Positions 3,024 through 6,566 of a DNA stretch of 28,458 nucleotides are shown here, in pieces (position 1 is the first letter of the stretch; each line of letters begins with the position of its first letter). The notes below the pieces were generated by a model. It saw only the letters and a list, made by a program, of their open reading frames with translations, was not told where the DNA came from and searched no databases. The translations under genes were made by a program, and so were the position numbers. The DNA is from a virus, in IMG/VR virus record IMGVR_UViG_3300030329_000695, positions 1-28,458 of that record. One strand, written 5' to 3'.

Positions 3024-3305
3024 GTGGTTGGTAGACCCTTAAAAAAAATACAATGCGAGAGTTACACAAGGGGAAGTAAATTTACAAAACAATGTCTCTG
3101 CAAAGGTTATTTTCAAAAAACTTCAGGTAAGTATCGCTGCAAGTTTCACGGAGGTTTTTCTACTGGACCAACATCACTTGAAGGCAGAATAAAGGCATTA
3201 AGGAATTTAAAATTTTTAAAGAACAAAACTGAAGAAGAAATACAACAATGGATCAAAAGCAAAATAAACGAAGTCTCATACCGGAAGAAACCCTCAACAA
3301 AATAA
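3024..3305 (+). CDS. HGG-motif phage protein with possible zinc site
   Basis: The product has 93 residues starting at GTG 3024; TAGGAA lies about 9 nt upstream. Cysteines C11, C24 and C26 and then Y-R-C-K-F-H-G-G-F-S-T-G-P-T-S-L-E-G-R form the C...C...C-x-x-H-G-G-x-S-T-G-P-x-T-x-E-G-R signature seen in many small phage proteins that lie just before the terminase genes. Cysteines and histidine may bind zinc. The family function is not established; proximity to packaging genes suggests a role in DNA handling. The 3' end overlaps the small terminase gene by 58 nt. Confidence 0.75.
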   Translation: MVGRPLKKIQCESYTRGSKFTKQCLCKGYFQKTSGKYRCKFHGGFSTGPTSLEGRIKALRNLKFLKNKTEEEIQQWIKSKINEVSYRKKPSTK

Positions 3306-3718
3306 TAGAACGAATTGAATTAGGAGAACCATTAACTAAAATTTGTAAGGATAAGTCAATGCCATCTTTATCTGTATTTTATAGATATATGAGAAATGAC
3401 GAGAAATTACAAAACAAGATCCGACAAGCAAGAGAAACTGGTTGCTTTACCATTATTGACAAAATTAACGAAGAATTAGAAACACCCCAAGACAATCAAC
3501 ATATGATGTGGGTAAGGGAAAAATTAGCGATGAGCCGCTGGCTCGCTTCTAAACTGGCTTCTGGTGTATTTGGCGATAAAATTAAGCAAGAGGTTAAGCA
3601 AGATACAAAATTAATCATTCAATGGGATATTCCTGAAAATGAGAACAATCTTATTCAAGCTAAAGAAATTGTGGAAGAAGTACCTAAAACACCTATACAA
3701 GAGCTATCAAATAAATAG
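3248..3718 (+). CDS. terS: Probable terminase small subunit
   Basis: The product has 156 residues. The N-terminal half has a small-terminase HTH pattern: E-E-T-L-N-K-I-I-E-R-I-E-L-G-E-P-L-T-K-I-C-K, then M-P-S-L-S-V-F-Y-R-Y-M as recognition helix. A central helical part follows, with M-M-W-V-R-E-K-L-A-M-S-R-W-L-A-S-K-L (oligomerisation) and F-G-D-K-I-K-Q-E-V. The R-W-x-x-x-K-x...Y/F-G-x-K pattern is common in small terminases of this type (Terminase_5/P22-like). It would recognise the packaging site and activate the large subunit. It overlaps the upstream gene by 58 nt and has no strong ribosome site, so translation is probably coupled. Unusually, about 1.57 kb with small genes separates it from the large subunit. 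Confidence 0.7.
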   Translation: MDQKQNKRSLIPEETLNKIIERIELGEPLTKICKDKSMPSLSVFYRYMRNDEKLQNKIRQARETGCFTIIDKINEELETPQDNQHMMWVREKLAMSRWLASKLASGVFGDKIKQEVKQDTKLIIQWDIPENENNLIQAKEIVEEVPKTPIQELSNK

Positions 3719-4613: not shown

Positions 4614-4628
4614 TAATAAAATCAATTA

Positions 4629-4662
4629 ACCTGGGAGAGAGTGATCTCTCCTGGGTTTTTTT
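4629..4662 (+). terminator. Rho-independent terminator of cassette 2
   Basis: CCTGGGAGAGA (4630-4640) pairs with TCTCTCCTGGG (4645-4655) through G-U wobbles and a GTGA tetraloop, followed by seven T residues (4656-4662). It closes the 4338-4613 unit and separates it from the structured region downstream. Confidence 0.9.
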
Positions 4663-4691
4663 ATGCCTATCATATTGGTTGAGCTATCTGG

Positions 4692-4800
4692 TTGGAGTGG
4701 GTGGATTGTTCGTATCTGTATGCGAGTGGCACGCTCTCGCACCCGCGTTATGCAGTTCTGGTAGTGTGAGCTATACCGGATTACACTTGGACCACTCTAA
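4692..4800 (+). ncRNA. GC-rich foldable segment: candidate structured RNA or packaging site
   Basis: Positions 4681-4800 contain 62 G+C in 120 by hand count, far above the surrounding AT-rich sequence. TTGGAGTGG (4692-4700) pairs with CCACTCTAA (4792-4800) as a 9-bp stem with one G-U. Inside, TGCGAG/CTCGCA (4721-4726/4736-4741) makes a 6-bp hairpin, and AGTGTGA/TTACACT (4763-4769/4781-4787) makes a 7-bp hairpin with one G-U. That is a branched fold. It does not fit a tRNA (no TTC-loop arm next to the closing stem). No convincing protein is encoded here. It could be a small RNA, a leader element, or a DNA site (cos/pac) recognised by the terminases that flank it. Strand and existence as a transcript are not established. 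Confidence 0.35.
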
Positions 4801-4980
4801 AATTATTGAATAAGTATTGATGTATATGGATATTCTGTAGGTATTGTACCTAAGACCCATTAAAAACGTAGAAAAAAAGTTAGTTTTCAGTTTGCAAGAC
4901 CCCCATATACACCAAAAACGAGGCGCATAAATTATAAATATATATATCGGGACTTCAAGACACAAACACACACAAACACT
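4801..4980. other. Non-coding stretch before the 4981 gene: dyad, direct repeats, AT run
   Basis: No gene is supported here. It holds another copy of the regulatory dyad (TATAT-GG-ATATT, 4823-4834) without an obvious TTGACA at the usual distance. It also holds a pair of related direct repeats: AAGACCCAT...AAAAACG (4852-4868) and AAGACCCCCAT...AAAAACG (4896-4920). An alternating A/T run (4928-4947) is followed by CGGGAC. The start of the late (packaging and head) operon must lie here or upstream because two terminators precede it, but I cannot assign a confident -35/-10 pair. A phage-specific promoter is possible. Confidence 0.4.
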
Positions 4981-5172
4981 ATGGATAACATTAAAAACAA
5001 ATTAATAACAGCAATGGTATTTACCGCAGAGGAGACGGGGGGATTAATAATCCACCTAAACGGATTTGAGGATAAAACCCATGCTGATAAGTTTTTAAAA
5101 AGATTAATGAAGAATAGCGGCATAGACTATAAATCAATACACGAGATGTTTGATTTACCAACAATTCACTAA
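4981..5172 (+). CDS. Small hypothetical protein at the head of the packaging operon
   Basis: The product has 63 residues (MDNIKNKLITAMVFTAEETGG start). There is no Shine-Dalgarno sequence; the 30 nt upstream are A/C-rich (CACAAACACACACAAACACT). No membrane segment; the middle H-L-N-G-F-E-D-K-T-H-A-D-K-F-L-K-R-L-M and C-terminal I-H-E-M-F-D-L-P suggest a small alpha/beta protein. It is the first gene of a block that continues tightly through the membrane microprotein into the large terminase. Family not recognised. Confidence 0.55.
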   Translation: MDNIKNKLITAMVFTAEETGGLIIHLNGFEDKTHADKFLKRLMKNSGIDYKSIHEMFDLPTIH

Positions 5173-5181
5173 GGAGGGATA

Positions 5182-5286
5182 ATGGATATAAATTTACTTA
5201 TTCATGAAGCTAAACATTATTGGAGAGATCACAAAAAAGTGGTTATAGGTGTTGCAGCTTTAATAGTAATATTAGCGATTTTATAA
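5182..5286 (+). CDS. 34-residue membrane microprotein coupled to the large terminase
   Basis: ATG 5182 has a perfect AAGGAGG 5 nt upstream. The product begins MDINLLIHEAKHYWRDHKK, an amphipathic/basic N-terminus, and ends in one hydrophobic segment, VVIGVAALIVILAIL. The stop overlaps the terminase start (TAATG at 5284-5288), and the terminase start has no ribosome site of its own, so terminase translation should depend on this small gene. A one-span peptide with a positively charged flank suggests a membrane protein with the N-terminus inside. It might be holin-like or pinholin-like, or help dock packaging at the membrane; neither is shown. Confidence 0.65.
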   Translation: MDINLLIHEAKHYWRDHKKVVIGVAALIVILAIL

Positions 5287-6566
5287 TGCACGTAAAAATA
5301 CCCTATACCCCAAGACCCTTACAGGCAAAACTGCATAAGGAATTAGATCGATATAGGTTTGCGGTATTATCGTGCCATCGTAGGTTTGGCAAAAGTGTGG
5401 CAATTATTAATCATTTAATAAAAGCTGCACTTACAAACAAACTTAAAAACCCTAGGTTCGCATATATAGCACCTACTTATAAGCAAGCTAAAAGTATCGC
5501 TTGGGATTATATGAAGATGTTTGCCGGAGGAATACCAGGGGTTAGGTTTCACGAAACGGAACTTAGATGTGATTTGCCGAATGGCAGCAGAATAACCTTG
5601 TTATCTTCTGAACAGCCAGATTCACTAAGGGGATTATTCCTTGACGGAGTTTGTATAGATGAGGTAGCGCAAATAGATCCGAGGTTATGGAACGAAATTA
5701 TTAGACCAGCGTTATCTGATAGGAAGGGTTTTTGTTATTTTATAGGAACCCCAGCGGGTATGAGTAATATTTTTTATGAATTATACCAGCACGCTTTATC
5801 AGATGATAAGTGGTTAGCTTATACGGCTAAAGCGAGTGAGACTAAAGTTATCGACCAGGAAGAGCTAGATGCGGCAAAAGCTCAAATGGGAGAATCAAAG
5901 TATAAGCAAGAGTTTGAATGCGATTGGATTGCAAACATTGAAGGTGCAATCTATGGAGAAATTATTAAGAATTTAGAAGAGAAAAAGCAATTAACCAGAG
6001 TGGGTTACGATCCAGCGTTAGTGGTTAATACCGCTTGGGATATTGGCGTAGATGACAGCACGGCTATTATTTTTTTTCAACAATTAGGAAATCAAATAAT
6101 GGTTATTGATTATTATGAAAATAATCGAGAGGGGTTGCCACATTACGTTCAAATGATAAAAGATAAAGATTATGTTTATGGAGAACATTTTGCTCCCCAT
6201 GACATAGAAGTTACCGAATTTTCCTCTGGTAAAACCAGAAGGGAAGTTGCTTACCAGCTTGGAGTAAGATTTAAAATCTTACCTAAGATACCTTTAGAAG
6301 ATGGTATCCACAGTTTAAAAATGGTTCTGCCAAAATGCTGGTTTGATATAGAAAGTACAAAACCATTAATTAATGCTTTACGACATCATCATCGTAAGTA
6401 TAACGAAAAGATGAAGATGTTTAGTAATAAACCAGTTAAGGATTGGTCTAGCCATGCTTGCGATAGCGCAAGATACATGGCTTTAGCAATAACCGAACTA
6501 CCAAGAGAAAAAGTTGCAGCGCAGAAAACCGCTGTCAATGATTATTTAATACACGGAGAAATATAA
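5286..6566 (+). CDS. terL: Terminase large subunit, ATPase and nuclease
   Basis: The product has 426 residues starting at ATG 5286; an upstream in-frame start at 5220 would lie inside the microprotein and lacks family residues. Residues 30-37 C-H-R-R-F-G-K-S are the Walker A motif of phage terminases. L-F-L-D-G-V-C-I-D-E (117-126) is Walker B with catalytic E126. G-T-P-A-G (154-158) is the coupling motif. In the C-terminal RNase H-like nuclease, D252 and D256/D257 (W-D-I-G-V-D-D-S) and a late D (H-A-C-D-S-A-R-Y) are the expected metal ligands. It cuts concatemeric DNA and pumps it through the portal. It lacks a ribosome site and is coupled to the 5182 microprotein by TAATG. The family is clear. 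Confidence 0.95.
   Translation: MHVKIPYTPRPLQAKLHKELDRYRFAVLSCHRRFGKSVAIINHLIKAALTNKLKNPRFAYIAPTYKQAKSIAWDYMKMFAGGIPGVRFHETELRCDLPNGSRITLLSSEQPDSLRGLFLDGVCIDEVAQIDPRLWNEIIRPALSDRKGFCYFIGTPAGMSNIFYELYQHALSDDKWLAYTAKASETKVIDQEELDAAKAQMGESKYKQEFECDWIANIEGAIYGEIIKNLEEKKQLTRVGYDPALVVNTAWDIGVDDSTAIIFFQQLGNQIMVIDYYENNREGLPHYVQMIKDKDYVYGEHFAPHDIEVTEFSSGKTRREVAYQLGVRFKILPKIPLEDGIHSLKMVLPKCWFDIESTKPLINALRHHHRKYNEKMKMFSNKPVKDWSSHACDSARYMALAITELPREKVAAQKTAVNDYLIHGEI

Follow-up and report, generated by a model that had tools for sequence, protein, structure and literature searches.

A conserved DNA core between the terminase genes of an HTVC010P-like pelagiphage relative as a likely packaging-initiation site

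A GC-rich stretch between the genes for the small and large terminase subunits of an uncultivated virus most likely serves as a double-stranded DNA signal, namely a terminase recognition and packaging-initiation cut site, and not as a folded RNA. We base this reading on three properties: a DNA element present in single copy near terS, contig ends of relatives that converge on it, and downstream repeats spaced at about one helical turn. The window (the whole stretch of DNA that was analysed, 28,458 nucleotides) comprises bases 1-28458 of a 39,085-base IMG/VR virus record. The end of this record overlaps its own start, with mismatches, indicating that the assembly had circularised the genome. 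The source phage is a relative of the HTVC010P-like pelagiphages (proposed Ubiqueviridae), a group that ranks among the most abundant marine viruses. The genes and the hairpin that frame the site are given here by their positions in the window.

3248..3718, plus strand: terS, an Sf6-like terminase small subunit, an HTH protein (phrog_1482, E=8.6e-24; Pfam PF20901 Sf6_terminase, E=1.4e-21)
4628..4666, plus strand: intrinsic-terminator-like hairpin followed by a T run (read off the sequence; a counterpart stands at the equivalent place in close relatives)
4981..5172, plus strand: conserved small ORF of 63 aa, just 5' of terL (an ORF of similar size occupies the equivalent place in annotated isolates)
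5286..6566, plus strand: terL, terminase large subunit (TerL ~65% identical to that of HTVC010P and other cultured pelagiphages; Terminase_6N)

The terS profile also matches PDB 4dyc/3hef (Sf6 gp1; E ~9e-10), and its product is the presumed binder of the packaging site. Homologues of this TerS in cultured pelagiphages are annotated as DNA-binding or hypothetical proteins (for example, MW273921.1:13-423 and KC465898.1:32560-32949); judging from their similarity, they probably represent the small terminase of HTVC010P-type phages, hitherto unrecognised as such. Pfam and PHROG searches with the 63-aa ORF returned no match, and the terminator-like hairpin may close a transcript 5' of the GC-rich site.

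The first-pass annotation had described the island as GC-rich, non-coding, devoid of a tRNA and located between terS and terL, and was right on each of these points. GC content over 4681-4800 is 51.7%, compared to 33.3% for the whole window, and is the highest among 2834 sliding 120-nt windows; ARAGORN found no tRNA in the island, and stops interrupt all six frames of its conserved core across relatives, which shows that the core encodes no protein. The helices that the annotation had reported are present as well, with a 9-bp closing stem formed by TTGGAGTGG (4692-4700) and CCACTCTAA (4792-4800), including one G-U pair, and two inner hairpins, one of 6 bp (4721-4726/4736-4741) and one of 7 bp (4757-4763/4774-4780). 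Such helices would be expected if the 109-nt segment were transcribed into a structured small RNA with a multi-branched fold that the 9-bp stem closes; indeed, across the eight closest relatives, five of the nine pairs of this stem do not vary. However, the claim that the segment folds beyond chance failed. The predicted energy of the 109-nt RNA was that of shuffled sequence (z = -0.35, with 67 of 200 shuffles equally stable), as were those of the RNA with its flanks (z = +0.96), of the segment folded as DNA (z = -0.09) and of the minus strand with flanks (z = -0.15), whereas a 9-bp stem of equal span arose in 36% of dinucleotide shuffles.

Comparative evidence also speaks against the RNA. Pair counting and RNAalifold on the eight closest homologues detected no covariation in the closing stem, which showed one-sided changes or breaks but never a compensatory change. 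The first hairpin likewise lacked compensatory changes, although it is nearly invariant in these sequences and thus uninformative, and two pairs of the second inner hairpin (the third helix) were disrupted, one in 4 and the other in 6 of the 8 sequences. RNAalifold proposed a different structure for the same alignment (covariation term -0.42, no double change). Rfam returned no family at either gathering or relaxed thresholds, the terminator-like hairpin precedes the island instead of following it, and the sequences flanking the closing stem are missing in most relatives even though the core between them is retained. A structured RNA is therefore very improbable here, and the 9-bp stem is probably incidental.

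What relatives do keep is a shorter DNA element. Relatives were gathered via TerL, TerS and motif searches (80 kept of 284 matching terL loci and 80 kept of 143 matching TerS loci), and the core was delimited by an iterated nucleotide profile (nhmmer).

4708..4758, plus strand: conserved core of the candidate packaging site, GTTC^GTATCTG...CTCTCGCACCCGCGTTATGCAGTTC (iterative nhmmer family; E=3.4e-7 in the window)
4711^4712 (plus or minus 1 nt), no strand assigned: predicted terminase cut (left ends of four contigs, L046, L056, L069 and L078; right end of L282 1 nt short)

This core of ~51 bp was found between terS and terL in ~80 distinct sequences among the relatives gathered, and occurs once in the window and the remaining 10.7 kb of the record. 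The 109-nt segment did not survive as a unit, in that relatives share only these ~51 bp within it and the flanks are unrelated between subfamilies. The core is retained even where the TerS of a relative is only 56-57% identical to that of the window. Two classes can be distinguished: the first, GTT(G/C)^...CATTATGGAGTTC, includes the window, and the second, TCC^GTGYTTT - 22 nt - CTCG...GTATGAGTTCG, occupies the equivalent place in other relatives. In cultured isolates, in which TerS is only 28-40% identical to that of the window, the core was undetectable, which would fit co-evolution of TerS with its site; the isolates could for this reason supply no mapped end. The cultured records break at various spots near the gap, and the junctions we inspected revealed no terminus.

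The cut position was instead approached by placing the true contig ends of relatives on a common coordinate, with contig ends serving as a proxy for read starts. Four left ends (L046, L056, L069 and L078), which stem from as many metagenomes and represent different subfamilies, fall on one aligned position, GTT(G/C)^, 22 nt 5' of the CTC block; L056 carries a 1-nt deletion, and its end was placed by hand, to within 1 nt. The region contains 20 ends over 521 bp, of which three lie at the site in addition to the hand-placed L056, and in simulations a pile of four ends had a chance of ~1e-4 anywhere in the region and ~9e-8 at a given base. The remaining ends are scattered, and most contigs read straight through the site. 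On the other side, the right-hand end of L282, placed on spanning relatives, lies 1 nt before the pile position and that of L103 ~12 nt before it. Left ends at the site outnumber right ends. A pattern search for further right-hand ends in one subfamily yielded none, with 9 of 9 contigs spanning the site; matches in L128, L137 and L184 that resembled contig ends proved to be unrelated sequences. From these data we infer that the cut in the window phage would fall at 4711^4712.

Contigs from mixed metagenomes often end at conservation boundaries, and only four of many contigs stop at the pile position, so the convergence might be an assembly artefact at a conserved/variable boundary and the core some other conserved DNA element. 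We consider this unlikely. Conservation extends past the cut for a few bases in the 5' direction, as GTTG/GTTC in one group and as TCC in the other, and thus the cut is not the edge of the homology; moreover, the four contigs span divergent subfamilies as well as different metagenomes.

Downstream of the core, several further modules precede the next gene.

4778..4799, plus strand: two weak 11-bp tandem copies, GGATTACACTT / GGACCACTCTA (7/11 identical in the window, counted by eye)
4803..4814, plus strand: AT-rich conserved box TTATTGAATAAG, adjoining the repeats (from alignments)
4838..4852, no strand assigned: inverted repeat TAGGTA-TTG-TACCTA, a conserved downstream module (followed by GACCC in relatives)
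4896..4976, plus strand: conserved non-coding modules before the next gene, consisting of a C-rich block, the AT tract TATATATATCGGGACTTCAAGACAC and CA repeats (alignments by eye); possibly a promoter or accessory site

A tandem repeat of 11-12 bp was detected in 68 of 98 non-redundant relatives (p<=0.05 each), mostly ~55-115 nt 3' of the predicted cut, as exemplified by ACTCCCTGGTT-ACTCTCTGGTTT. Strong in relatives, these are candidate TerS-binding repeats. The right arm of the 9-bp closing stem sits in the second tandem unit of the window. In relatives, the inverted repeat takes the form GTAGGT...ACCTAC-GACCC and follows the AT-rich box. The C-rich block and TATATATATCGGGACTTCAAGACACAAACACAC of the 4896-4976 module are recognisable in cultured isolates too (ACCCC..TATATATATACATGGGA), and the conservation of this module reaches further than that of the core. 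In some close relatives (L003, L006 and L009), the CA-repeat tract is separated from the 63-aa ORF by an additional small ORF, whose product starts with MTRPKCSKC and contains zinc-ribbon-like CxxC pairs. A further member of the group, IMGVR_UViG_3300030098_000945, has 69,712 bases, ~2x the usual genome length, and may represent either a concatemer produced in assembly or a larger relative.

That several conserved modules, AT-rich tracts included, run on to the next gene would also suit a replication origin or a late promoter/regulatory region bound by initiator or transcription factors, and inspection by eye revealed a DnaA-box-like TTATACACA near the AT tract in some cultured relatives. Such a region would, however, leave unexplained both the convergence of contig ends on one base and the strict placement between terS and terL. 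We thus regard it as quite unlikely to account for the island as a whole; origin or promoter roles are quite plausible for the downstream modules but less so for the core.

A tyrosine integrase is encoded at ~33.2-34.4 kb of the record (Phage_integrase, E=1.3e-9; record G000, locus L214:4833-5978), and genes for HTH repressor-like and LexA-like proteins lie nearby. HTVC010P is pictured as lytic; given the integrase and the HTH repressor-like proteins, this relative may be temperate. The same genes would give a use to an attP, or to a fossil tRNA used by the phage integrase, at the island. Yet attP usually adjoins int, whereas here the integrase gene lies ~10 kb from the site around the circular map. 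ARAGORN found no tRNA in the window or the rest of the genome, and a search of 84,980 genomes with the core motif gave no SAR11 match, only 12 scattered matches in unrelated taxa. An attachment site is accordingly among the least credible readings, with hardly any probability left to it. The annotation had left open a packaging (cos/pac) site, a novel small RNA and a fossil tRNA/att piece; the first is the one best supported, by the conserved core between terS and terL, the contig-end pile at one base, the downstream tandem repeats and the Sf6-like TerS, and the other two gained no support.

How the candidate site compares with known packaging systems depends on the system. Packaging initiation in Sf6 is spread over a broad region, whereas the contig ends of the relatives studied here fall on one base. 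As in the pac sites of P22, Sf6 and SPP1, the element is near the terminase genes, the initiating cut would lie near the TerS recognition sequence, and TerS is itself Sf6-like. Sf6 has been described as a pac headful packager, pac of P22 lies inside the TerS gene, and in SPP1 several contact points flank the cut (PMC9611059). The site considered here differs from that of P22 in occupying the gap between terS and terL.

In lambda, cosB measures 120 bp and contains three R sites, while cosB of N15 is simpler and has no IHF site (PMC4669245). The cosQ-cosN-cosB order of these phages, in which a TerS-binding segment comes after the cut, in the part of the DNA that is first to enter the capsid, resembles the succession of cut, core and candidate repeats described above. 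Unlike in lambda, the repeats are in tandem with a spacing of 11-12 bp, an Sf6-type TerS stands in place of gpNu1, and there is no sign of staggered 12-nt ends. The IHF consensus was found in 1 of 98 relatives, against 2.3 expected, so that this mark of a lambda-type cos is lacking. The HTH-ring TerS of the Pseudomonas podovirus PaP3 binds a GC-rich cos and recognises it as a 20-bp oligo (PMC7672466). A GC-rich site and an HTH TerS are common to both phages, with binding shown for PaP3 and putative here; the right contig ends in our set carry no 20-nt overlap.

For HTVC010P-like phages, we found one packaging claim in the literature, a 125-bp direct terminal repeat reported for the cultured Skadi isolates, which had been assembled as circles with high coverage at contig ends (PMC10504331). 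Among the records of these isolates (OP131293-OP131302), two lengths, 35,392 and 35,267, are 125 apart, exactly the size of the reported repeat, and the end of the Skadi-1 record falls within terL. Given this length difference and the end inside terL, the repeat looks like an assembly overlap.

Taken together, the comparisons suggest a scheme in which a ring of the Sf6-like TerS would bind concatemeric DNA at the core, at the downstream tandem repeats or at both and, once bound, would position TerL. TerL would then cut at the core's left edge, which in the window corresponds to 4711^4712, and the cut end would be threaded into the procapsid with the terL side first, such that packaging would proceed rightward. 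Each of these steps, from TerS binding and TerL cutting to the direction of packaging and the use of this cut in the window phage, is predicted from sequence comparison. As to the type of packaging, we lean slightly towards a headful site of the pac type at which the initiation cut is precise, because the nearest solved relative of TerS, that of Sf6, belongs to a pac headful packager and cultured relatives assemble as circles. A cos site, for which the precise end, the lambda-like order of cut and then repeats, and the L282 end argue, is a serious but lesser contender. The edge of a direct terminal repeat has only a small share of the probability: with whole contigs tested, there was no pile of right ends further downstream (only single ends at +238, +468 and +507 within 600 nt), which is a weak argument against such a repeat.

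A more specific proposal, which we put forward tentatively and hold to be rather doubtful, is that of a modular site in which a cos-like layout, with a precise cut, fixed spacing and tandem repeats at helical-turn distance, goes together with an Sf6-type TerS, and in which the core switches, across relatives, between TCC^GTGYTT...GTATGAGTTCG and GTT(G/C)^...CATTATGGAGTTC. If this is true, the two classes would form a series of natural variants from which the TerS-DNA recognition code could be read.

Packaging sites are a known kind of element; we found none described for this phage group, although an earlier account of its genome ends may exist. A located packaging site would provide a rational start for these genomes and make their ends and packaging type predictable from sequence. 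It would also yield an extensive natural alignment in which TerS proteins are paired with their DNA sites, and thereby bear on the unsettled question of how a TerS ring recognises its DNA.
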